From Deltaproteobacteria bacterium (lineage in GTDB: Bacteria > Desulfobacterota > Syntrophobacteria > Syntrophobacterales > Syntrophobacteraceae), in contig JAAYVE010000035.1 of the NCBI GenBank assembly GCA_012517315.1, forward strand, positions 1-64,000: DNA of 64,000 nucleotides, read 5' to 3'. Position 1 is the stretch's first letter; each line of letters opens with the position of its first letter. Below, in pieces: positions 409 to 50,794 of this stretch. Made by a program: the position numbers and the translations under genes. The notes beneath the pieces are model-generated. The model was not told where the DNA came from. It searched no databases and saw only the letters and a list, made by a program, of their open reading frames with translations.

Positions 409-1656
409 GTGGGACGGAAGCCACTGAGAGACAAGGAGCAGGCCAAGGGTTCTCGCAAGAGCCATCCCTCCCAGGAGACCACCGGACGAGGGGCAGGGGG
501 TTCGTTGCAGGTGTTGGTTTTCTCCCTTGTCTGTGCCGCCTTTACGACCATTTACATCACGCAGCCTGTGCTGCCGGTTCTGAGGCAGGAGTTCGGGGTG
601 GATGCCACGACGGCCTCATACACCATCGCTGCTGTCGTCCTTGGAATCGCCCTAGCCAATCTGCCCTTCGGCGTGCTCTCGGATCGCTACTCGGTGAAGC
701 CGATCATCCTGGTGGGGGGAGTGGTGATCTCTGTCTGCGGCCTTGTATGCGCCGTGAGCACACGTCTTTCGTTTCTCGTGGTGGCCCGTTTCGTACAAGG
801 GCTGTTCCTCCCCTCTCTCACGACCTGTCTGGCTGCTTATCTCGCTCGAAACCTTCCTGTAGACTCCCTCAACGTGGTGATGGGTTCCTACGTTTCCGCA
901 ACGGTGGCGGGAGGTCTCGGCGGCCGACTCCTGGGGGGCTGGATCCATCCCCCTCTCCACTGGCGCTACGCATTCGTCAGTTCCTCTTTGTTGGTTCTTG
1001 CATCGGCATGGGCAGCGTATCGAAAGCTGCCGGCTGAAGAGCGCAGAGCTTCCGCCACCATGCCCCGGGCTGGTTTTCTTGAACTCCTTGCCAACAGAGA
1101 ATATCTCCGGATGTACTTGGTGGCCTTCGGTGCTTTCGCCGTTTTCTCATCTTTGTTCAACTACCTTCCGTTCTATCTCGCTGGTCCCCCGTTTGGAGCA
1201 TCCACGGAGCTTATTACGTTCATGTATCTGTCGTACGTCATCGGCATCATCATGGGACCGCTGTCGGGGACGCTGAGTAACCGCATCGGCAATGGTCTGA
1301 CCATGGTCGCCGGCTCCCTCGCCTTGGGCCTATCTATGGGCTTGACGCTCGTTCCGTCCATTTGGGTTATCCCCTTAAGTCTTGCGGGCATCTGCGCCGG
1401 TTTTTTCGCCGTCCATTCCGCAGCCGCCGGTTCACTCAACCGAAAGCTGGCTTCCAGTCGAGGCCGGGCCAATTCCCTTTACGTCCTTTTCTATTACCTG
1501 GGGGGAGCCGCTGGGATTTCCGCAAGTGGTCAAGCGTATGCCCTCATGGGCTGGACCGGCGTGGTGACACTGGCTTTCCTCATCCTTTGCATCCCAGGGG
1601 TGATCGGGCTGATAGAGACCCGAAACGAGAGGGGGACAGGCGCATGTCGGCCCTGA
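409..1656 (+). CDS. MFS transporter (YnfM/drug-efflux type)
   Basis: This 415-residue protein has the hydrophobic profile of a 12-helix major facilitator. The first helix begins near residue 33 with LQVLVFSLVCAAF and carries the ITQPVLPVLRQEF signature typical of YnfM-like permeases. The loop between helices 2 and 3 has FGVLSDRYSVKP, matching the MFS motif A (GxLaDrxGrk). Substrate cannot be read from sequence; relatives export small organic molecules. The assigned start is GTG at 409 with a weak GAGG upstream. Internal starts near 505-511 would remove a hydrophilic 30-residue leader and are possible. It stands alone between the rrn terminator and trkA. Confidence 0.85.
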   Translation: MGRKPLRDKEQAKGSRKSHPSQETTGRGAGGSLQVLVFSLVCAAFTTIYITQPVLPVLRQEFGVDATTASYTIAAVVLGIALANLPFGVLSDRYSVKPIILVGGVVISVCGLVCAVSTRLSFLVVARFVQGLFLPSLTTCLAAYLARNLPVDSLNVVMGSYVSATVAGGLGGRLLGGWIHPPLHWRYAFVSSSLLVLASAWAAYRKLPAEERRASATMPRAGFLELLANREYLRMYLVAFGAFAVFSSLFNYLPFYLAGPPFGASTELITFMYLSYVIGIIMGPLSGTLSNRIGNGLTMVAGSLALGLSMGLTLVPSIWVIPLSLAGICAGFFAVHSAAAGSLNRKLASSRGRANSLYVLFYYLGGAAGISASGQAYALMGWTGVVTLAFLILCIPGVIGLIETRNERGTGACRP

Positions 1657-1775
1657 TGAACCTGCACGGGCACCGAGTTTGCGCACCAGGTGCGCGGAAG
1701 AGCCTGGTGGAATCTGGTATGAATGGATTTCGCGAGGGTCGTTTGCGATTTTCAAACAGGGGAGGAGGGTGACCT

Positions 1776-3119
1776 TTGAAAGCGGTCATTGTCGGTGCCG
1801 GCGAGGTCGGTTTCCGCATTGCGCGGCGCTTGGGGCTGGAGAGCAAGCACGTTGTGGTCATCGACAGGAATCCTGAAGCGCTTAAAAGGGTTGCGGAACT
1901 CCTGGATGCCAAGACGATCCTGTGGTCGGGGAGCAACCCGAGATCCTTGGATGAAGCCGGGGTTCGGGATGCGGAGACCTTTCTGGCCGTGACGGACGGT
2001 GACGAAACGAACCTGGTTGCACGCCTCTTCGCCGACGTCATGTCGCCCGGATCGTCAAGCCGGTGAAGCTTCGCAACGCGGATTACACGCAGTACCGTCC
2101 AGAGTTGATTGAAATGATCATCAATGTGGCCCGCATCATCACTCCCGAGCTTGAGGTAGTGAAGACCATCGAGGGCTTGATGACGGTTCCGGACGCGGAA
2201 GAAATCATTGAGTTCGCCGATGGCCGGATTCATCTCATCGGCATCCGCATCCACGATGAATGCCCGGTCCTTGGAGAGGAGTTCATCGATTTGAGGCGAA
2301 GAACCGGTGAACTTCGATTCATCGTCGCGGCAATCATTGGACAAAATCGCCTCATTATCCCCACGGGAAGGAGCCACATCCCTAGGGGGGATCTCATCTA
2401 CTGCGTGTGTGAGCGGGCGGAGCCGACGAATGTCCTGACGGTCTTCGGCAGTCGGACGGAACCGGCGAAGCATGTGCTCATCATTGGTGGCGGAAACATC
2501 GGGCTGGGTCTTGCCCGGAAGCTCGAAAGAATATCGATGCATGTCCGACTGATCGAGAGAGACCGAAAGCGCTGCGAGTCGCTTGCCGAACATCTTGATC
2601 GCACCGCCGTGTTGAACGGAGACGGGACAGACCAGGAGGTCCTGGAGGAAGAAAACGTTCAGGGCATGGATGTGGTCATTTCTGCTACGGGGGACGAGGA
2701 AAGCAACATTCTTTCCTCCCTACTCTGTGGTCAGCTGGGTGCTAGGCGAACCATCACCAGGATCAACAAGATCGCTTATATGCCCATTGCCGAGGCCATC
2801 GGCCTTGGACAGATCGTGAGTCCACGGTTTTCGGCTGTCAACACGATCCTTCGGCACATCCGGAAAGGCAAAGTGGTGTCTGCATTTGTATGGAAGGGGG
2901 AAGGGGGAGGTGCTGGAGGCGGTGGCCCTGGAGCATTCGGGAGTTGTGGGCAGGCCGCTCAAGGACGTGCGTTTCCCCAGCGGCGCCCTTGTGATCTTTG
3001 CACTGAGGGGGGAACAGAGCCTTATCCCCACAGGGGACACCGTCATCGAGCCGCAGGTCCGCATCATCATCCTGGTGATCCGAAAGAGCATTCCCCATGT
3101 GGAACGCGAGTTCATGTGA
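1776..3119 (+). pseudogene. trkA: Trk potassium-uptake regulatory subunit TrkA, broken by two compensating frameshifts
   Basis: TTG at 1776 follows a strong GGAGGAGGG. The first frame (1776 to about 2050) has the TrkA N-terminal Rossmann fold (VIVGAGEVGFRIA, then SNPRSLDEAGV and VTDGDETNLVARLFAD). Homology then continues in another frame from about 2040 to 2895 (RIVKPVKLRNADY, TrkA-C domain, second Rossmann motif IIGGGNIGLGLARKL). It returns to the first frame (EVLEAVALEHSGVVGRPLKDV and the final TrkA-C domain) up to the TGA at 3117-3119. The two shifts cancel, so 1776-3119 is a multiple of three (447 codons plus stop), the usual TrkA length. The second shift lies in a G-rich homopolymer tract (2896-2908), so sequencing error is a real alternative to true decay. 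TrkA binds NAD(H) and gates Trk/Ktr channels; no trkH/trkG is nearby. Confidence 0.85.
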
Positions 3120-3136
3120 TGAATGAGGAGATTCCC

Positions 3137-3424
3137 ATGGTTGATCCGAAGAAAATCCAATCTGTCGTCACGCACCTGGAAAACGAATTCCCGGGCTGCA
3201 CCGTCGAAGGGCATCACGATCTCGCCCAGCGTGTGCACCGCTTCGTGATCAAGAACGGAGCCACAGCCTACCGGGCCATCGTGCTGGAGGAGTTCCTGGA
3301 AACTCACAAGGCGGAGGAAATCCCCCCTTTGCTGACCATGTTCACCTTGGCGGAGCATCTCAGAGAACTGCCTTCGGCTGGCTTTGTCGTTACCAAACGT
3401 GGCTTGAAGCTGGAGCATGAATAG
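3137..3424 (+). CDS. Small conserved protein, function unknown
   Basis: This 95-residue protein starts MVDPKKIQSVV. I chose ATG 3137 because GAGGAG lies 7 nt upstream; an earlier ATG at 3119 overlaps the trkA stop (TGATGA) and would add six residues. It contains no cysteine-rich or membrane segment. Features seen are an acidic/hydrophobic middle (AIVLEEFLETHKAEEIPPLL) and a C-terminal GFVVTKRGLKLEHE. Because of the trkA frameshifts, naive gene calling would fuse it to the middle of TrkA; the RBS shows that it is a separate gene, probably co-transcribed with trkA. I do not recognise the family. Confidence 0.7.
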   Translation: MVDPKKIQSVVTHLENEFPGCTVEGHHDLAQRVHRFVIKNGATAYRAIVLEEFLETHKAEEIPPLLTMFTLAEHLRELPSAGFVVTKRGLKLEHE

Positions 3425-3448
3425 TGAATGAGGTGGGAGTCGTGACCG

Positions 3449-3474
3449 TCGGCTCTCTGTTGCTCACGAGCCGA
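3449..3474. repeat. Inverted repeat between convergent genes
   Basis: TCGGCTC (3449-3455) and GAGCCGA (3468-3474) are perfect 7-bp arms around a 12-nt loop at the convergent junction of the small plus-strand gene and the NUDIX gene. It could be a bidirectional transcription stop, but no clear T-run follows on either side. Confidence 0.35.
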
Positions 3475-3988
3475 TGGGGCTCTTTCTGCGGCGCTTCTCC
3501 TGGAAGAAACGGCGCACCATCTCTTCATGCAGACGAAAGGCCAGTGGGCATGGCTCCTCTGCAATGACCCGTTCCGTGGTTTCTTCGGTGGCGAAGAAAG
3601 AGGGAAGAGCCCGGGAATCCCTTTTGTGTGCCAATCCAAAGATGAGAATGGTTCCGTCCTCGGCGCTTCTCACCGCGAACTCCCGGATTTCTCCCGGGTC
3701 GAGATGAATTCCGGTTTCCTCCAACACCTCCCTCGCCCCCGCCTCCTGCCAGGTTTCACCCAGGTTGATGTACCCACCCGGCAGGGCCTGCATCCCCTCG
3801 TGAGGTTCAATTCCTCGACGGATCAATACCAGTCCCTCATCAACGGGAACCAGGACCACAGCGACGGGAATGGGATTGAGAAAGGTGAAGTTTCCGCAAC
3901 GGGCGCATTGTCTAGGCCATGGCATGCAGGCAGTGAAAAGATGTCCGCAGTAAGAGCAGTGGGAGTTTTTGGAAGCCACCCGGTTCAT
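3464..3988 (-). CDS. NUDIX hydrolase with N-terminal zinc ribbon
   Basis: The protein opens with a zinc ribbon (CSYCGHLF ... CARCG) and then a NUDIX fold. The NUDIX box GYINLGETWQEAGAREVLEETG matches G-x5-E-x7-REUxEExGU, with the metal-binding REVLEE glutamates intact. Zinc-ribbon NUDIX proteins of this build are often NADH- or nucleoside-diphosphate-derivative pyrophosphatases; the exact substrate is unknown. The frame is open upstream to 4216, but the extra residues look non-coding, so I place the start at ATG 3988 (MNRVASKNSHC); ATG 4039 is an alternative. It lies downstream of flxA on the same strand and may be a distal member of that operon. Confidence 0.8.
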   Translation of the reverse strand: MNRVASKNSHCSYCGHLFTACMPWPRQCARCGNFTFLNPIPVAVVLVPVDEGLVLIRRGIEPHEGMQALPGGYINLGETWQEAGAREVLEETGIHLDPGEIREFAVRSAEDGTILIFGLAHKRDSRALPSFFATEETTERVIAEEPCPLAFRLHEEMVRRFFQEKRRRKSPIGS

Positions 3989-7279: not shown

Positions 7280-7717
7280 TCACTTCCTGGCAAGGGGATT
7301 CGGTCCCACTGCATGGATCGTTTCCGAGAATTCGCTCACCACCTGTTGCCATCTCTGTCCTTCAGAGGCGGAGACCCACGTGTAGCGAAAACGCCTCTGG
7401 TCGATCCCCATGAAAGAAAGGAAATTCTTCAGAACTTCCAGTCGTCTTCGGGCATAGAGGTTGCCGACGGCATAGTGACAGTCCTTGGGATGGCATCCCG
7501 AGACCAGCACGCCGTCCGCACCGTAGATCAAGGGCTTGGCCACGAAAAGGGGATCCACCCTGCCGGTGCACGGAACACGGACGACACGGAGATCGGTGGG
7601 TTGTTTGAAACGGCAAACCCCCGCCGTATCAGCGCCTCCGTATGAACACCAGTTGCACAGAAAACCGATGATCCGGATGCTGTCAACCAAGGCACCGGAC
7701 GCTGCGGATTGGTCCAT
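7280..7717 (-). CDS. flxD: FlxD / MvhD-like 2Fe-2S adaptor subunit, locus 1
   Basis: This 145-residue MvhD-family protein starts at ATG 7717 (AAAGGA 10 nt upstream; a nearer ATG at 7726 abuts the RBS). All hallmark cysteines are present: FLCNWCSYGGAD at the N-terminus, VRVPCTGRVDP, and SGCHPKDCHYAVGN. In methanogen MvhD this family carries a 2Fe-2S cluster that passes electrons from a donor module into HdrA; here the donor is the Flx module. It lies 15 bp after hdrA, consistent with one transcript. It serves as the reference for the altered paralogue at 45923-46354. Confidence 0.9.
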   Translation of the reverse strand: MDQSAASGALVDSIRIIGFLCNWCSYGGADTAGVCRFKQPTDLRVVRVPCTGRVDPLFVAKPLIYGADGVLVSGCHPKDCHYAVGNLYARRRLEVLKNFLSFMGIDQRRFRYTWVSASEGQRWQQVVSEFSETIHAVGPNPLARK

Positions 7718-9876: not shown

Positions 9877-10809
9877 TCAGGCCATTTTTCCCCCGACGGA
9901 TTGATCCCTTTCCCCTTCTCTGCTCAAGATATCCAGCAGGGAATCAGCCTCTACAAAGAGCTTATCGATACCGAGTGACTCGGGTTCCACGCCGAAAGCC
10001 AGTCCCATGAACTGGGAGATGTAAAGGACGGGCATGTGAAAGTCCCGCCGCCAGTATCGGTTCACCTGGGCCTGCCGCAAATCGAGATTCTGCTGGCACA
10101 GGGGGCAGGAGACGGCAATGGCTTGGGCGCCCACACGATTGGCCATGTCCAAGATGCGGCCTGTGAGTTTCCCCACGATTTCGTTTCGGGTCACACCGTA
10201 GGTTGCTCCACAGCATTCCGTCTTGAACGGAAATTCCGGCACGGAAGCTCCCAGGGCTTCCAGAATGCGGTCCATGGAGATGGGATTTTCGGGATCGTCG
10301 AATTGCATGAAATCCGGGGGCCTGGAGATGAGGCAGCCATAGTACGGGACAATCGACAGACTTGTGAGGGGTTTTGTGACGCGGTTCCGGATGGCCTCCG
10401 TTCCAATGGTTTCAAAGTAGAGCTGCAGGTTGGAAACGGCCTGGATGTTTCCCTGGAAAGGCATCTGCAAAATTTCCAGGAATGCCTCCCGCTTGTTTGG
10501 ATCCTTGAACACCTTCAAGGCTCCTTTGAGCGCTTTCAGGCAGCCGGGGCATGGAGTCATGACCACGTCGAAACCCTGCTGTTCGGCGATGGCGAGGTTC
10601 CTACCCGAGAGGGCCGCCGAGAGCAAAGGATCATAGGAATGGGCTGGTGTGGACCCACAGCAGCTCCAATCGGGAATTTCAACGAGCTCCACACCCAGCG
10701 CATCGCAAACCACCCGGGTGGAGACGTCGAACTCAGACGCCATCTGCTCCAGCGAACAGCCCTGGTAGTATGCTACTGTTGTCTTTTTCGGTTTCAGTTC
10801 CACAGGCAT
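9877..10809 (-). CDS. hdrB: CoB-CoM heterodisulfide reductase subunit B homologue, locus 1
   Basis: This 310-residue protein has two complete CCG domains. The first is YYQGCSLEQM ... SCCGSTPAH ... TPCPGCLKAL, the second PYYGCLISRP ... ECCGATYGV ... SCPLCQQNL; both fit C-x(31-39)-CC-x(35-36)-CxxC. HdrB ligates two non-cubane 4Fe-4S clusters and performs disulfide reduction in methanogens; in bacteria the partner is probably a protein thiol. The ATG at 10809 has AAAGGT upstream and lies 6 bp after the hdrC stop, so the pair is coupled. All catalytic cysteines are present as ordinary UGC/UGU codons, in contrast to the UGA in locus 2. Confidence 0.93.
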   Translation of the reverse strand: MPVELKPKKTTVAYYQGCSLEQMASEFDVSTRVVCDALGVELVEIPDWSCCGSTPAHSYDPLLSAALSGRNLAIAEQQGFDVVMTPCPGCLKALKGALKVFKDPNKREAFLEILQMPFQGNIQAVSNLQLYFETIGTEAIRNRVTKPLTSLSIVPYYGCLISRPPDFMQFDDPENPISMDRILEALGASVPEFPFKTECCGATYGVTRNEIVGKLTGRILDMANRVGAQAIAVSCPLCQQNLDLRQAQVNRYWRRDFHMPVLYISQFMGLAFGVEPESLGIDKLFVEADSLLDILSREGERDQSVGGKMA

Positions 10810-42475: not shown

Positions 42476-42965
42476 GGTTTTTCGTATCTGTTTCTGGGCT
42501 TGGAGAATCGTTCAGTGGAATGTTGGGTTGTCATCGCTCTGCAGCAGTGCTCAGGAAGAAATCAGTCCCAGAAATTTCCCTCGAAGGCGTATCACCACAA
42601 CCTGGTGCTGCACGGGTGAGTGCGGAGCCGCTTCCCTTCCCAGGCGGCCATTCAGGCGGGCAGTCGCCGTGCCTCTGGTCCCAAAGGATCCTTCTTTCAA
42701 GCTCGAAAGATGCGACCAAGCCATCAGCAGGTGAATTGAATCCGGAATCTATCAGCCCCCGCCGGATCTGGGGGCACGGGTCTTGTGCGCTCCCCCGGGA
42801 GAAAGGTCTTCCCGGTGCAGTCTCTTTTTTGGGCCCGGTATTGTGATTGTAGTCACATGGCTCTCTCGCGCCACCAGCGAAGGTTCGGTGGTGGCAGAGG
42901 GCGGCGAGGGGCCCGGTCGGTAGGGCGGATCTTCGGCGAATCGTTTGCTTACGGAGTGGATGTTC

Positions 42966-45878
42966 ATGAACGGAAATCTTGGATTGGAGCCATCGGCAGG
43001 TGCGGTCATGGTGGTCGGGGGGGGAGTGGCAGGCGTGCAGGCAGCCCTCGATCTGGCCGAATCCGACTTTCAGGTTTATTTGGTGGAGAAAGGCCCCTCT
43101 CTAGGGGGTGTCGTCCTCCAGTTGGACAAGACGTTTCCCACCAACTGCGTGGGCTGTCTGGGCTGCCGGGCCCAGCATGTCGGCATGGCGCAGCTGGACG
43201 AGAGCATCCCGGTGAACGATTGCTCCACATGCATCGTTTCTCATAAGCTGGAGGAGAGTGGGCGCCACCGCAATGTTCAGATCCTGACGATGGCCGAAGT
43301 GGAGTCCGTTGAGGGGGGAGCGGGGAATTTTCAGGTGCGGGTGCGCAGGAAGAGGCGCAACCTCGACTGGTCGACGGCACCTCCTACGGTTTCCTACGGA
43401 GCTGACGAAGTCGTCTCGCTCCGTGTGGGGGCCATCATTTTGTCCCCCGGGTTCAAGGTGTTCGATCCCAGCATCTACGATACCTTCGGATACGGTGTTT
43501 ATCCCAATGTGGTTTCCAGCCTGGAGCTGGAGGGCATTCTCAATCCATACGGACCCAATCACGGGCGCCCCGTGAGGCCGTCCGACGGCCGGCCGCCAAA
43601 GCGGGTCGCTTGGTTGCAATGCGTTGGTTCCAGGGACCTGCACAAGGGCGCCCATGGCTACTGTTCCAGCGTTTGCTGCATGTACGCCATAAAGGAAGCT
43701 CTGGCCGTGAAGCAGCATGACCCCGAGATCGACACCGCCATTTTCTTCATGGACATGCGCACCTTCGGCAAGGAATACGAGGAATACTACAACTGCGCCA
43801 AGAACGAAGCGGGGGTCCGGTTCATCCGGTCCCGGATTCACAGTGTTGAGCCTGCAGGAGCGGGCTCGGGCGACCTCAGGCTCGACTATATTGATGAAAG
43901 TGGGCAGCATTGTAGTGAGATCTTCGACATGGTCGTCCTCTCGGTGGGCCTCGAATCGCCTTCAGGCATTCAAAGTCTGGCGGAGAAACTGAACATTTCG
44001 CTGGACGACAACGGTTTCGCTGCGGTGGGTGATTTCACCCCCGTGGAGACGAGCCGTCCCGGGATTTTTGCATGTGGTGCCTTCGCCGGTCCCAAAGATG
44101 TGCCGTCTTCCCTCATCGAGGGATCGGCCGCTTCCGCCGCGTCCGCAGCTATTCTTTCCAACTCCAAGAAAGCCGGATTTCAAGGGAACACTTATCCTCC
44201 GGAAAACCCCGTCGTTTTCGAGCGGCCTCGGGTGGGAGTGTTTTTCTGTGTCTGCGGTTCGGAGGGAACAGGGGCGGTGGATGTGGCATCCGTCCGAGAG
44301 TCCGTGAAAGGGCTGCCCAACGTGGTCTATGTTTCCGAGGAGATGCTGAGCTGCGGTCCCACTGCCCAGGAGGCCGTCGTGAAAGCCGTCGGTGAGAGGC
44401 GCATCAACCGGGTGGTAGTGGCCGGTTGCAGCCCCAGGACCCACGAGAAATTCTTCCAGGAGACCCTCCGAAATGCGGGCCTGAATAAGTCCCTTTTGGA
44501 ATTCGCCAACCTTTGGTTTCAAGACGCATGGGTCCACGAGGATCAACCCGCACCGGCGACGCAGAAGGCTGTGGATCTCATCCGCATGGCGGCGGCCAAG
44601 GCGGTTCTGCTGGAACCGTTTCCCCAGCAGGAATACAAGGTCAATCAAAAGGCTCTTGTGGTGGGAGGCGGTGTCAGCGGCATGGTGGCGGCCCGCTCTC
44701 TTGCGGACCGGGGGTACCCTGTGGTGCTCGTGGAGAAGTCCGACCGTCTCGGGGGCTATGCCCTCAATTTGTTCAAGACGTGGAGAGGGAACGACGTTGG
44801 CCCGTACGTGAAGGAACTGGTGGGGAGCGTCGCCAATCACCCGAATATCACTGTCCGTCTCTCCTCCATCGTTGATCGTGTGGAAGGGTACGTGGGGAAT
44901 TTCAAATCCACGCTGAGTAACGGTTCGGAGTCGGAGGTGGTGGAACATGGCGTGGTGATCTTGGCCACAGGCGGCAAGGAGTTCGAACCGGCGGAGTATC
45001 TCTATGGAAAAGACAACCGGGTGTTGACCCATCAGCAGCTGGATGCACGTTTCAAGGCTGCGGATCCGGCTCTGCGCTCCCTTGAGTCCGCCGTCTTCAT
45101 CCAATGCGTGGGGTCCAGGGAGCCCGAACGTCCGTATTGCAGCCGCGTGTGCTGCACCCATTCCATGGAAAGTGCCCTCCAGTTGAAGCGGATCAACCCG
45201 GATGCAGACGTCTACGTGCTCTACCGCGACATGAGGACCTACGGGGACCGGGAAAAACTCTACCTGGAAGCCAGGAAATCGGGTGTGGTGTTCATTCGGT
45301 TCTCCCTGGATTCAAAGCCCCGTGTGGATAGAGTGGACGGAAACCTGCATGTCACGGTCTTCGATCCCATTCTTCAAAGAGAGATCACCATCGTGGCCGA
45401 CCTGGTGACCCTGGCCACCGCCATCCTGCCAAACGATGCCGGGATCCTTGCAAAGGCCCTGGATGTGCCCGTGGGGAGGGAGGGGTTCCTGTGCGAGTCC
45501 CACCTGAAAATGCGACCTGTGGACTGTGAGACGGACGGGGTTTTTCTTTGCGGACTGGCCCACTTCCCCAAGTCGCTGGACGAAAGCATTGCCCAGGCGA
45601 TGGCGGCGGCATCCAGGGCCGGCGCCTTCCTGTCGAAAGAGTCGGTCCGGTTCAGCGGCGCTGTGGCCTACACCAATCAAATGATGTGCAGCAGTTGCGG
45701 CACCTGTGTGTCCATCTGCCCCTTTTCCGCTCCCCGGTTCAATGACAAGGGCAAGGCCGAAATCAACCCGGCCCTCTGCAGGGCGTGCGGCCTGTGTGTG
45801 GCATCCTGCCGCTCCGGGGCCATCCGGCTGCGCGGATACGAAGACGCTCAAATCTATGCAATGATCGAAAGCATTTAG
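42966..45878 (+). CDS. hdrA: Double-length HdrA-type flavoprotein, locus 2
   Basis: This 970-residue protein is a fusion of two HdrA/pyridine-nucleotide-oxidoreductase modules. Module 1 has the FAD motif VVGGGVAGVQAALDL at residues 15-30 and the HdrA signature QLDKTFPTN, followed by a cysteine-rich CVGCLGC and a second QLDESIPVNDCSTC. Module 2 begins near residue 415 with VGVFFCVCGSEG and has a second FAD motif VVGGGVSGMVAARSL near 565. Conserved VGSRDLHKG..YCSSVCC and VGSREPERPYCSRVCC occur once in each module. Two C-terminal clusters (CSSCGTCVSICP, CRACGLCVASCR) end it. The mid-protein ferredoxin clusters seen in hdrA of locus 1 are missing. ATG 42966 has GGAG 9 nt upstream. It is probably the bifurcating core of locus 2. 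Confidence 0.88.
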   Translation: MNGNLGLEPSAGAVMVVGGGVAGVQAALDLAESDFQVYLVEKGPSLGGVVLQLDKTFPTNCVGCLGCRAQHVGMAQLDESIPVNDCSTCIVSHKLEESGRHRNVQILTMAEVESVEGGAGNFQVRVRRKRRNLDWSTAPPTVSYGADEVVSLRVGAIILSPGFKVFDPSIYDTFGYGVYPNVVSSLELEGILNPYGPNHGRPVRPSDGRPPKRVAWLQCVGSRDLHKGAHGYCSSVCCMYAIKEALAVKQHDPEIDTAIFFMDMRTFGKEYEEYYNCAKNEAGVRFIRSRIHSVEPAGAGSGDLRLDYIDESGQHCSEIFDMVVLSVGLESPSGIQSLAEKLNISLDDNGFAAVGDFTPVETSRPGIFACGAFAGPKDVPSSLIEGSAASAASAAILSNSKKAGFQGNTYPPENPVVFERPRVGVFFCVCGSEGTGAVDVASVRESVKGLPNVVYVSEEMLSCGPTAQEAVVKAVGERRINRVVVAGCSPRTHEKFFQETLRNAGLNKSLLEFANLWFQDAWVHEDQPAPATQKAVDLIRMAAAKAVLLEPFPQQEYKVNQKALVVGGGVSGMVAARSLADRGYPVVLVEKSDRLGGYALNLFKTWRGNDVGPYVKELVGSVANHPNITVRLSSIVDRVEGYVGNFKSTLSNGSESEVVEHGVVILATGGKEFEPAEYLYGKDNRVLTHQQLDARFKAADPALRSLESAVFIQCVGSREPERPYCSRVCCTHSMESALQLKRINPDADVYVLYRDMRTYGDREKLYLEARKSGVVFIRFSLDSKPRVDRVDGNLHVTVFDPILQREITIVADLVTLATAILPNDAGILAKALDVPVGREGFLCESHLKMRPVDCETDGVFLCGLAHFPKSLDESIAQAMAAASRAGAFLSKESVRFSGAVAYTNQMMCSSCGTCVSICPFSAPRFNDKGKAEINPALCRACGLCVASCRSGAIRLRGYEDAQIYAMIESI

Positions 45879-45922: not shown

Positions 45923-46354
45923 ATGTCCCAGTGGGAACCGAAAATCGTCGCTTTCATGTGCAGCTGGAGTTCTTATCCCGGAGCGGACTACGCGGGGCTG
46001 AGCCGGCTGGCCTATCCGCCCAACATCCGCATCATCAAAGTGCCCTGTGCCGGGCGCATCAATCCGAAATTCATTCTCTCGGCCCTGCGACAGGGTGCGG
46101 ATGGGGTGTGGATTTCCGCGTGCCATCCCGGGGACTGCCATTACATGGAGGGAAACCTCTATGCCAGCCGCAAATTCGCCCTCATGAAGAATTTTCTGGA
46201 ACACACGGGGATCGAACCCGGCCGGGTTCATTTTTCATGGGTTTCCGCAACGGAGGGACACAAATTTGCGCAGACGGCCAAAGAGGTGGTCGATTCGGTG
46301 AAGGCTTTGGGACCTGCCAGGCACATGATCAAAAAAGAAGCTGAGGTGGCATAG
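45923..46354 (+). CDS. flxD: FlxD / MvhD-like adaptor subunit with altered cysteine motif, locus 2
   Basis: This 143-residue MvhD-family protein starts 45 bp after hdrA, with GGAGAG upstream of the ATG. It keeps VPCAGRINP and SACHPGDCHYMEGN, but the N-terminal motif reads MCSWSSYPGAD where family members (and the copy at 7280-7717) have CNWCSYGGAD. One expected cysteine is therefore serine. Whether the 2Fe-2S cluster survives with a changed ligand cannot be told. It passes electrons between the Flx module and HdrA in the family. Its stop is directly followed by the ATG of flxC. Confidence 0.88.
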   Translation: MSQWEPKIVAFMCSWSSYPGADYAGLSRLAYPPNIRIIKVPCAGRINPKFILSALRQGADGVWISACHPGDCHYMEGNLYASRKFALMKNFLEHTGIEPGRVHFSWVSATEGHKFAQTAKEVVDSVKALGPARHMIKKEAEVA

Positions 46355-47305
46355 ATGCAAGGCTATACACAACGGATCCGAGAGGCGGCCAAACGCCTGC
46401 TTGCCGAAAAGAAGGTGGATGTGGTGATGGGCTTCCGCAAGGGGACGATCCCCTTCATGAACGAGCCCTTTTTGGCCAAAAGCCCTGAACAGGTGGACCA
46501 GCTTCTGTGGGACGGCAACTGTGGGATCAACCTGGCCAATTATCTTTCCGGGAGGAAGGACAGGATCGGGATCGTGGCCAAAGGGTGTGATTCGCGAAAC
46601 ATCGTCGTCCACCTGCTGGAGTACCAGATCAAGAGAGAACAGCTCTACATACTGGGTGCCCCCTGCCACGGCATGATCGATGGACGGCGCATCACAGAGG
46701 AGCTTGCGGGAAAAGAGCCTTTGCAGGTGGAAGAGGAGAACGGCCGGATTCGCGTGAGCGGCAAAGGCTTCGAGGAGAGTTTTGACCGGAAGCAATACCT
46801 CCAGGAAAATTGTGCCATTTGCATGCATCGCAACCCCGTCGTCTATGACGAGCTCGTGGGCGACTTGGTGGAAGAGCAGAGGGACGTGGACCGGTACGCG
46901 GATGTGCGCGAGGTGGAAGGGTTGTCCCCGGAGGCCAAATGGAAGTACTTCGAGGACCTCATCGCCCCCTGCATCCGCTGCTACGCCTGCAGGAACGCCT
47001 GTCCCGTCTGCTACTGTCCCACCTGCTTCGTGGACGAGTCGAGGCCCCAGTGGGTGGGCAAGACCGTCGACCCCACGGACACCCGCACCTTCCATTTCCT
47101 GAGAGCATACCACGTGGCCGGTCGCTGCACTGACTGCGGGGCGTGTGAGCGGGCCTGCCCGGTCGGCATCAAGATGCGTCAGTTCACAAAGAAGCTGGAG
47201 AAGGACATCAAGGAGATGTACGGATACGAAGCGGGAGTGGATCCGGAATCGAGACCCCCTCTAGACACCTATCGGCCGGACGATCCGAGAGACTTCGCCA
47301 AGTAG
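46355..47305 (+). CDS. flxC: FlxC-type 4Fe-4S protein, locus 2
   Basis: This 316-residue homologue of the protein at 6168-7136 shares KGCDSRNIVVHLLEYQ, LGAPCHGMIDGRRI and CAICMHRNPVVYDEL. Two ferredoxin clusters follow, CIRCYACRNACPVCYCPTC near residue 206 and CTDCGACERACPVG near 258. It begins immediately at the flxD stop (TAG then ATG), so it is tightly coupled to flxD; GAAGCTGAGG upstream serves as RBS. It functions as an electron relay in the NADH-oxidising module. Confidence 0.87.
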   Translation: MQGYTQRIREAAKRLLAEKKVDVVMGFRKGTIPFMNEPFLAKSPEQVDQLLWDGNCGINLANYLSGRKDRIGIVAKGCDSRNIVVHLLEYQIKREQLYILGAPCHGMIDGRRITEELAGKEPLQVEEENGRIRVSGKGFEESFDRKQYLQENCAICMHRNPVVYDELVGDLVEEQRDVDRYADVREVEGLSPEAKWKYFEDLIAPCIRCYACRNACPVCYCPTCFVDESRPQWVGKTVDPTDTRTFHFLRAYHVAGRCTDCGACERACPVGIKMRQFTKKLEKDIKEMYGYEAGVDPESRPPLDTYRPDDPRDFAK

Positions 47306-47433
47306 GCACGGGGGGGCCCTCCAGCGCCGCCCCTCCTCCGGAAGGGACGGCCGGGTTCCATACATGCTGTGCGCCTCGTTGTCAACGCATGGGTTCGCTC
47401 TGCATTCGAATTGGATACCGAAAGGGACAGATC

Positions 47434-48486
47434 ATGTCGGAAATATACATTGCCAAAGACAAGTTCCCCTCAGTCCTCGGGCAGTTGATGGGAAAGTGCC
47501 CCGTGTTCGGACCGGTGCTTCAGGGGAAGTTCCACGAGTTTGGCCGGCTCGAAAGGCCCGAGGACGTGGACCTGGGATATGGGAACACCCGGCTTTCGCC
47601 CAAGGCGCTCTTCCACCCCCAAGCGGAGAAAATGTTTGATTTCAGTCTCTCCAAGGGGGACCCCGAAGCGGGAATTCTCAAGGAGACTCCCAAGGACTTC
47701 AGACCCCGTGTCATCTTGGGGATCCGCCCTTGTGACGCCCGAGCCTTTCAGCTGGACGACCGCAACTTTGACACCGATTCCGTGCGGGATCCCTGGTGGG
47801 TGAGGCGGCGGGAGACGACCACCCTGGTGGGACTCGCGTGCAACACTCCCGGCAGCACCTGCTTTTGTACCTCAGTGGGGACAGGGCCCTTCGACAAGAC
47901 AGGCCTGGACGTGCTTATGGTGGACGTGGGTGAGGGTTACCTCTTCCAGGCGTCCACGAAGAAGGGGGAGGAATTCCTGGCTGGCCTTTCGGCCGGCGAG
48001 GCGGTTTCGGGATCCGTTGCGGAGAAGGCGGATGCCCTGAAGAAGGGTGCGGAAGGGAGCATGGGGACGCAGTTCAGCGTGGATGCCATCGTGCAGAACC
48101 CCACCCTGGACCTTTTCAACGCCGCCTTCTGGGATGAGGTGCAGTTTTCCTGTATCAACTGCGGCACCTGCACTTTCGTATGCCCGACGTGCTGGTGCTT
48201 CGATATTCAGGACGAGGTTTACCAGGAGAAGGGAAGCCGCATCAGGCTTTGGGACTCGTGCATGTTCCCCCTTTTCACCTTTCACGGTTCCGGCCACAAC
48301 CCCAGGAGCCAGAAATTGCAGCGGGTGCGGCAGCGGTTCATGCACAAACTGAAATATTATCCCGAAAAGTACAAGGGGGGGGTTGCCTGCGTGGGATGCG
48401 GCCGGTGCGTGAGACAGTGCCCCGTCAATATCGATATCCGTCACGTGGCGCGTCTCATGTCCGCCTCCTGTGTGTGTCCGACCTGA
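47434..48486 (+). CDS. flxB: FlxB-type 4Fe-4S protein, locus 2
   Basis: This 350-residue homologue of the protein at 4981-6048 has GIRPCDARAFQLDD, CNTPGSTCFCTSVGTGP and two ferredoxin clusters (CINCGTCTFVCPTC near residue 240, CVGCGRCVRQCPVN near 322), ending SASCVCPT. Start ATG 47434 (MSEIYIAKDKF) is chosen for AAAGGGA upstream; the frame is open further back without an RBS. The spacer to flxC (128 bp) contains a GC-rich imperfect hairpin. It is a cytoplasmic electron-transfer subunit. Confidence 0.87.
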   Translation: MSEIYIAKDKFPSVLGQLMGKCPVFGPVLQGKFHEFGRLERPEDVDLGYGNTRLSPKALFHPQAEKMFDFSLSKGDPEAGILKETPKDFRPRVILGIRPCDARAFQLDDRNFDTDSVRDPWWVRRRETTTLVGLACNTPGSTCFCTSVGTGPFDKTGLDVLMVDVGEGYLFQASTKKGEEFLAGLSAGEAVSGSVAEKADALKKGAEGSMGTQFSVDAIVQNPTLDLFNAAFWDEVQFSCINCGTCTFVCPTCWCFDIQDEVYQEKGSRIRLWDSCMFPLFTFHGSGHNPRSQKLQRVRQRFMHKLKYYPEKYKGGVACVGCGRCVRQCPVNIDIRHVARLMSASCVCPT

Positions 48487-48582
48487 TGCACACCGGGATG
48501 TGACCGGCGCCTGAGCGAATGTGTGGAAATCCTGTCAGGAAGATTTCGCCGAGGGAGTCATGCTCAAGATGGAGGAATCAAG

Positions 48583-49425
48583 GTGAATAACCCTTACTTG
48601 CCATATCCGGTCAGAATCGAGTCCATTGTCACGGAGACCGAGGACCACAACCAGAAGACGTTCAAGCTGGTCTTCCTCAGGCCGGAGGACGAGGCGAAGT
48701 TCGTGTACATGCCCGGCCAGTTCGCGGAACTCTCCGTGGCGGGGGTGGGTGAAGTTCCCATCGGCATTGCCACGTCACCCACCGAAAAGGGCTTCATCAG
48801 CTTCACGGTGAACAAGGTGGGGAAGGTGACGAGCCACCTTCACAACATGGAGGAGGGGGAGATCATGGGAGTGCGGGGTCCCATGGGCAACAGCTTTCCG
48901 TGGGATGTTCTCGAGGGGAAGAACGTGGTGATCATCGGCGGCGGATTCGCTTTCACGACACTGCGCTCTTCCATCGTCTACATGCTCCATCCTGAAAACA
49001 GGTCACGCTTCGGGGACATCACGGTGGTGTACGGGGCGAGGTCCCCCGGGCTTCTCCTCTACAAGGAGGAACTGGCGGCATGGGAGCGGCGGGAGGACAT
49101 CCGGATGCACATCACGGTGGATGCCACCACCGATCCCAACTGGAAATACAACGTGGGCTTCGTCCCTGCCGTCACTAAGGAGAAGGCTCCCAGCGCGGAC
49201 AATTCCTACGCCATCATCTGCGGTCCGCCCATCATGATCAAATTCACCCTCCCCGTGCTCACGGAACTGGGATTCCCTCCCGAACGGATCATCTCCAGCC
49301 TGGAAATGCGCATGAAATGCGGGATCGGAATCTGCGGCCGTTGCAACATCGGAACGGAATACGTTTGCAAGGACGGCCCGGTGTTCACCCTGGCCCAGCT
49401 GTCCCGCTTGCCCAACGAGTACTGA
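48583..49425 (+). CDS. flxA: FlxA-type FAD/NAD(P)H-binding subunit, locus 2
   Basis: This 280-residue protein is related to the one at 4164-5000. It has an FAD domain (YMPGQFAELSVAGVGE, VRGPMGNSFPWD), an NAD(P) domain (IIGGGFAFTTLRSS, VYGARSPGLLLY, CGPPIMIKF) and a C-terminal 2Fe-2S segment MKCGIGICGRCNIGTEYVC. The GGG-x-G loop here is GGGFAF rather than GGGIGM, a small change in the pyridine-nucleotide loop. GTG 48583 (VNNPYLPYP) has GGAGGAATC upstream; the longer frame from 48523 lacks a better site. It is probably the NADH entry point of locus 2. Confidence 0.87.
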   Translation: MNNPYLPYPVRIESIVTETEDHNQKTFKLVFLRPEDEAKFVYMPGQFAELSVAGVGEVPIGIATSPTEKGFISFTVNKVGKVTSHLHNMEEGEIMGVRGPMGNSFPWDVLEGKNVVIIGGGFAFTTLRSSIVYMLHPENRSRFGDITVVYGARSPGLLLYKEELAAWERREDIRMHITVDATTDPNWKYNVGFVPAVTKEKAPSADNSYAIICGPPIMIKFTLPVLTELGFPPERIISSLEMRMKCGIGICGRCNIGTEYVCKDGPVFTLAQLSRLPNEY

Positions 49426-49573
49426 GCTTGACCTCCAGGAGGGCTCCGCAGGGGAAAAGGGTTTTCTGCCCCGGATGCTTTGATTCCTGATTGGCTTTGG
49501 AGGAGAAGTATTGTATTTTGACATGCAACCTGTCGAGCCCTGCTTTCGAAAACCGTCTTAGGGGAGAGTGTAA

Positions 49574-50794
49574 ATGGAGCCATTGCTTTTGACCAAGCGT
49601 GAAAGGCGTAAGTTGGCGAGCCAGTATGCCGAGTTATGCCTGACGTGCGGCACCTGCGCGGGAGGATGTCCGGTCACCGGGGTGGACGGACTGGATGTCC
49701 GCAAAGTCGTGCGTCTGGCGGTCCTGGGACTGGACCAGGAGATCATCGATTCCAAGTTCCCCTGGGTGTGCACCTTGTGTGGACGCTGCGAATACGCATG
49801 CCCAATGAACATCGACTTGTTGACGCTGCTCCGGTCCGCCCGAAGCATGAGGGACAGAGACAAGGTTCCCGGCGTGCTGCACAAGGGGGTTGAACAGTGC
49901 CTCAAGTCGGGAAACAACGTCGGGATTCCCAAAGACGACTTCCTGATGCTCATGGAGGACGTGGGAGCCGAATTGGCCGAGGAACTGCCGGGTTTTTCGG
50001 TCCCCATCGACAAAAAGGGCGCCAAGTACCTCTTCACCGTGAATTCCAAGGAACCCTTCGCGGAACCCGAGGACATGATGCACTGGTGGCGGATTCTTTA
50101 CGCCGCCAATGAGTCCTGGACCATCGCATCGGAAAACTGGGAAGGGGTCAACTGGGGCCTTTTCACCGGGGACGATGAGGCCATGAAGGAAATTGTTGGC
50201 CGGGTCGTGAGGAATTACAAGGAACTGGAATGCGAGTACCTTGTCTTACCCGAGTGAGGTCACGCCTACTATGCGACCAGGCTTGGTCTGCAAAAATGGT
50301 ATGCTCATGAAAACGTCAAGTTTCTTGCCGTCCATGATCTTTTGAAACAATATCTCGAGGAGGGGCGCATCAAGGTGGACAAGTCCATTCACCACGAACT
50401 GGCCACCTACCACGACCCCTGTAATTACGCCCGCAAGAGCGAGCGCACCTTCGGCCACGGGTATTACGAGGAGCCCCGTTGGGTCATGCAGCAGTGCTGT
50501 GAGAACTGGGTCGAAATGTATCCCAACAGGGCGAACAATTTCTGCTGCGGTGCGGGCGGCGGTGCCTGGGCTTCGCCATACGTCGAAGAGAGAATTTTTT
50601 ACGGTCGCACCAAGGCCAAGCAGATCAAGGACACGGGGGCGAAGCTTCTCATCGCGCCATGCCACAACTGCCGCGACCAGATCATGAAAAGCCTCCGCAA
50701 GGAATACGGCATGATGGATGTGGAGGTGATGTATCTGTGGGAGCTCGTGGCAAACTCCCTCATCATCGAACCACGGGAAGCGGAAGAAGAGTAG
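49574..50794 (+). CDS. HdrD-like iron-sulfur oxidoreductase, probable selenoprotein (UGA 50255-50257 read as Sec)
   Basis: An N-terminal dicluster ferredoxin domain (CLTCGTCAGGCP near residue 19, CTLCGRCEYACP near 66) is followed by a CCG-type catalytic domain. The frame meets TGA at codon 228, but the same frame goes on without any other stop to 50794 with perfect family content: GHAYYATRLGLQKW, DPCNYARK, NFCCGAGGG and APCHNCRD. In HdrD/GlpC-like proteins the residue before GHA is the conserved Cys of E-C-G-H, so the UGA replaces exactly that ligand. A bulged hairpin with a GGCT loop lies at 50272-50292. Sec is therefore the best reading; a C-to-A error is the alternative. The whole is 406 residues, the usual length. 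ATG 49574 has AGGGGAGA upstream. It closes the locus and replaces HdrB/HdrC. Confidence 0.82.
50272..50292 (+). promoter_or_regulatory. Candidate bacterial SECIS element
   Basis: TGC-GACCA (50272-50279), loop GGCT (50280-50283), TGGTC, one bulged T (50289) and GCA form an 8-bp stem with a four-base loop starting GG and a single bulged U on the 3' side. This is the arrangement of the E. coli fdhF SECIS. The loop starts 22 nt after the UGA, within the distance used by bacterial SelB. Confidence 0.7.

Follow-up and report, generated by a model that had tools for sequence, protein, structure and literature searches.

Predicted selenocysteine in an HdrD-like protein encoded at the end of a Flx-Hdr operon of a Syntrophobacteraceae bacterium

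The last gene of a Flx-Hdr operon in the analysed window (the whole stretch of 64,000 nucleotides) very probably encodes one selenoprotein, whose in-frame UGA is read as selenocysteine (Sec) 228 by the canonical tRNA-Sec and SelB under the guidance of a hairpin. The protein is considered an HdrC-HdrB fusion of the GlpC (UGH) family, and it is predicted to form the HdrBC-type arm of the Flx-Hdr complex. The features are listed in the table; G, C, and L numbers denote genomes, contigs, and loci, respectively, and G000 is the source genome.

Table. Positions of the Sec-HdrD gene, its operon, and related features (window coordinates, except for locus L112)
Feature	Position	Strand	Basis or remark
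HdrA-like flavoprotein, two HdrA modules, same operon	42945..45878 (predicted start)	+	ORF list, domain matches, synteny
MvhD/FlpD-like subunit (FlxD equivalent), Cys form	45923..46354	+	Domain matches, synteny
Fe-S protein, FlxC-like operon position	46355..47305	+	Domain matches, synteny
AsrA/sulfhydrogenase-beta-like Fe-S subunit (FlxB-like)	47389..48486	+	Domain matches, synteny
AsrB/sulfhydrogenase-gamma-like FAD/NAD-binding subunit (FlxA-like)	48523..49425	+	Domain matches, synteny
Shine-Dalgarno-like AGGGGAG	49560..49566	+	7 nt 5' of ATG, spotted by eye
Sec-containing HdrD-like (HdrC-HdrB fusion) gene	49574..50794	+	406 codons, the TGA among them, before the TAG stop
In-frame UGA, predicted selenocysteine 228 (PEUGHA)	50255..50257	+	Codon identical in all fetched close orthologues; Cys in homologues
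Bacterial-type SECIS-like hairpin within the coding sequence	50272..50292	+	GGCU apical loop 50280-50283, bulged U 50289
selC*-type tRNA	L112 3591-3682	-	With SelB-like gene 1508-3571 (-); likewise L118, L120; compare L113-L117

The frame contains a single TGA and is otherwise open up to its stop codon. Ordinary ORF calling splits it into products of 227 residues (49574-50257) and 150 residues (50342-50794, TTG start). These results confirmed the sequence-only reading, which had described one TGA-interrupted frame at the same coordinates and two broken genes from conventional calling. Among the 148 related genomes searched, over 40 copies of the gene keep a single in-frame TGA; the same holds for every close orthologue (76-90% identity), and these span the Syntrophobacterales and related groups. 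The position of the TGA is invariant in all fetched orthologues, in the context (V/L)LPEUGHAY. It is also present in the isolates Desulfacinum hydrothermale, D. infernum, and Desulfoferrobacter suflitae, and in many MAGs. The alignment with Cys homologues, proposed earlier as a check, showed Cys at the UGA codon (PECGHA/PDCGHA) in the closest ones (55-61% identity), which are continuous across it; more distant Cys homologues have PDCGGGS at this site. Third-position divergence greatly exceeds second-position divergence upstream (0.47 vs 0.05) and downstream (0.46 vs 0.11) of the UGA, which argues that translation continues in this frame through the 3' part. An in-frame UGA, homology on both of its sides, and Cys in the homologues, by which a bacterial selenoprotein is recognized, are thus all found in this gene.

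The two ORFs from ordinary calling would also be expected from a pseudogene or split gene in which the UGA is a true stop. This explanation is hardly credible, since dozens of genomes carry this same single TGA, both sides are under purifying selection, and the Cys homologues are continuous. A frame that truly ends in the homologues had been named as possible counter-evidence; in the close orthologues the frame instead continues past the one TGA. A sequencing or assembly error at a TGC or TGT codon has a smaller probability still: nothing was found in its favour, and the TGA is shared by independent isolate genomes and MAGs. With the identical codon in independent named isolates and MAGs, both error and pseudogene were rejected.

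The machinery for selenocysteine insertion was searched in the source genome (99% complete), as had been suggested, and selA, selB, selD, and the canonical tRNA-Sec (selC, anticodon UCA) were all found. The selB complement comprises one full-length canonical copy and two further divergent SelB-like genes. In G027 and G035, no more than about 2 kb separate the canonical tRNA-Sec gene from the Sec-HdrD orthologue. This spacing is recorded at L123 (4092-4190) and L124 (3283-3381), from a pair of genomes that belong to a different family within the order. One of the two selD genes above the cut-off (G000:C42:27607-28530, L049) contains an in-frame TGA, so the selenophosphate synthetase is probably also a selenoprotein. 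Several MvhD genes of the source genome (C24, C33, C28) carry in-frame TGA codons as well, which indicates a large selenoproteome.

The SECIS-like hairpin (TGCGACCA-GGCT-TGGTC-T-GCA) has 8 bp and one bulged U. As expected for a bacterial SECIS element, it lies just downstream of the UGA and has G in the apical loop; the UGA is followed by the stem after 14 nt and by the GGCU loop after 22 nt. The sequence-only reading had given the coordinates, pairing, bulge, and loop correctly, but its start 22 nt downstream is the distance of the loop, not of the stem. Codons 233-240, coinciding with the hairpin, show the strongest synonymous-codon conservation in the whole gene. Compensatory changes were found at two stem pairs in separate lineages: C-G to U-A in L063-L065, which costs a Gly-to-Ser replacement, and G-C to A-U in L066-L067. 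About one sequence in four does not keep the three basal pairs. The folding energy by itself does not set the hairpin apart (z -1.42; 20 of 200 shuffled sequences are as stable), and RNAalifold gave another, short lower stem. Therefore, the case for the SECIS element rests on the synonymous constraint and the compensatory changes, which support selection on this putative hairpin. Together, the machinery, the conserved UGA, the Cys homologues, and the hairpin give good support to the original proposal of Sec at this codon of an HdrD-like protein.

A second tRNA with anticodon UCA, of the selC* type and with discriminator A73, adjoins a divergent SelB gene on contig C43 of the source genome, and likewise in G001 and G036. 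A selC* tRNA-Cys and selB* have been described in Syntrophobacterales (PMC7609411). In Desulfacinum-type relatives, the tRNA at the matching site has GCA and U73, and corresponds to this described pair. As anticodon and discriminator are both changed, the UGA-reading form might have an altered amino-acid identity. It could be argued that the UGA of the HdrD-like gene is read, at least partly, by this second tRNA and its SelB-like partner, giving Cys or another residue and not Sec; the location of the tRNA directly upstream of the divergent SelB in the source genome and the published tRNA-Cys system are consistent with this. However, the selC* tRNA of G026, G028, G030, G032, and G038 has the anticodon GCA, which cannot read UGA, and the orthologue still keeps its UGA. 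The tRNA of the source genome also has A73 in place of the U73 of tRNA-Cys, and in G027 and G035 it is the canonical tRNA-Sec that lies near the Sec-HdrD gene. Decoding by the second pair is thus very unlikely. There is an equally small chance that codon 228 is switchable: with selenium in supply the canonical tRNA-Sec would insert Sec, and without it the selC*-like tRNA (UCA, A73) and the divergent SelB paired with it would deliver another amino acid. Insertion of Sec by the canonical tRNA-Sec and SelB is the preferred reading.

Another SelB-like gene (L126 2184-4085, minus strand; 44% to the C43 copy) is adjoined by an N-terminal MvhD fragment (G000:C28:4133-4336, minus strand). No tRNA was found near this C28 SelB-like gene; relatives have the order tRNA-MvhD-SelB. 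The C28 locus may be a decayed or rearranged copy. In G001, the second tRNA, selA, and MvhD genes with UGA are present, and the canonical tRNA-Sec was undetected in the assembly. With 740 contigs, an assembly gap is likelier than true loss.

Domain searches of the Sec protein showed a 4Fe-4S dicluster domain and one CCG domain (Pfam). The best NCBIfam matches are HmcF, TmcB, and DsrK of the sulfate-respiration complexes (E 1e-48 to 1e-57), which have the same domain order. However, the scores are far below the curated cut-offs (195/750, 182/735, and 165/400 bits, respectively), so that none of these equivalog names applies, and the gene belongs to a soluble Flx-Hdr operon. The AlphaFold2 model (mean pLDDT 87) matches EtfD over its full length (Z 26.0), HdrB over residues 150-399 (Z ~20), and HdrC in the N-terminal part (Z 8.4). 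By these fold matches, the protein is a predicted HdrC-HdrB fusion of the HdrD type (HdrD/DsrK/HmcF-like).

By analogy with EtfD and HdrB (PMC13083937), two sets of invariant Cys residues, 22, 25, 28, and 32 and 66, 69, 72, and 76, would each match a cubane cluster, and Cys 283, 324, 325, 363, and 366 would match one noncubane cluster in the C-terminal CCG domain. The fold and the C-terminal noncubane ligand pattern C-(CC)-C-x-x-C are common to EtfD (PDB 9ojn), HdrB (5odc, 8rvy), and the Sec protein, whereas the latter lacks the membrane domain and keeps only Sec in its N-terminal CCG half. The hhalign comparison, a weak match (probability 53, E 1.3e-4), placed Sec228 at the first Cys of the CxxC in the N-terminal CCG domain of HdrB. 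All other Cys ligands of this half are missing, so that Sec228 stands alone beside the remaining cluster. In proteins of the HdrB type, both CCG domains are complete and each binds a noncubane cluster; here the C-terminal one alone is complete. The earlier description of the UGA as replacing a catalytic-site cysteine therefore holds for the aligned position, but no other ligand survives in that half, and the intact noncubane site is C-terminal. In EtfD, His583, between Cys581 and Cys584, completes the noncubane cluster (PMC13083937), and His230 of the UGHA motif may be its counterpart. In several searches, the printed sequence alignments to EtfD (9ojn) ended before the Sec loop, and no open paper on a DsrK cryo-EM structure was found in the literature search.

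The gene order hdrA-mvhD-flxC-flxB-flxA-Sec gene is kept in Syntrophobacterales, and two lineages further removed share it. Homologues of HdrA, MvhD, and FlxA-C are thus encoded together, as in the NADH-dependent electron-bifurcating FlxABCD-HdrABC complex. That complex has separate HdrB and HdrC, whereas one Sec-containing fused protein is encoded here; no separate hdrB or hdrC was found in the Flx-Hdr cluster within the window. The FlxA-like frame as listed probably begins about 20 codons too early, as its alignments with homologues start at residue ~16-21. The window also contains a second Hdr cluster, with an MvhD homologue (7304-7672, minus strand) and an HdrB homologue (9931-10776, minus strand) whose two CCG domains are both intact.

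The most likely role that we infer for the Sec protein is that of the HdrBC-type arm, disulfide-reducing or electron-delivering, of an NADH-dependent bifurcating Flx-Hdr complex. Electrons would pass from NADH through FlxA/FlxB and the MvhD/HdrA flavin to the Sec protein, where the two cubane clusters of the HdrC half would feed the single C-terminal noncubane [4Fe-4S] cluster. Sec228 would be located in the N-terminal CCG loop facing this cluster, and might act as a selenolate that attacks the substrate disulfide or as an outer ligand of the cluster. The most plausible acceptor would be a disulfide, either of the DsrC type or a small molecule.

The selenoprotein status of the family is already known, and the present gene adds one member. 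The "Fe-S oxidoreductase (GlpC)" has figured among the selenoprotein families since 2006 (PMC1794560), and its motif is given as UGH in a 2026 review (PMC13188914); the same motif is found here (PEUGHA). Like the Sec protein, members of this family (PTHR43551) are Fe-S oxidoreductases with a CCG domain and Sec in (E)UGH (PMC1794560, PMC13188914), and in Deltaproteobacteria they adjoin hdrA and mvhD/frhD. The reported operon is glpC-hdrA-frhD-frhG-frhA, in contrast to the hdrA-mvhD-flxCBA arrangement here. Three UGA-containing members were counted in Syntrophobacter fumaroxidans in 2006 (PMC1794560). G006, taken as S. fumaroxidans MPOB, has three UGA-containing homologues, matching this count; one is a direct orthologue with 87% identity in the same Flx-Hdr operon. 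On this identification, the gene would be orthologous to a GlpC selenoprotein of this species. HdrD4 of Desulfobacterium autotrophicum HRM2 is likewise described as a soluble HdrC-HdrB fusion and predicted selenoprotein (PMC2702500). Among the titles returned by the literature search, none indicated a selenoprotein in a Flx-Hdr operon.

In summary, a gene that ordinary calling splits in two is now corrected, and the sole HdrBC-type component of a widespread Syntrophobacterales Flx-Hdr operon is very probably a selenoprotein. The alignment provides a testable proposal, that of one selenolate at the cluster-ligand Cys site of HdrB, beside a single noncubane cluster. Selenium supply would thereby be tied to the NADH-based bifurcation of electrons by sulfate reducers and syntrophs.
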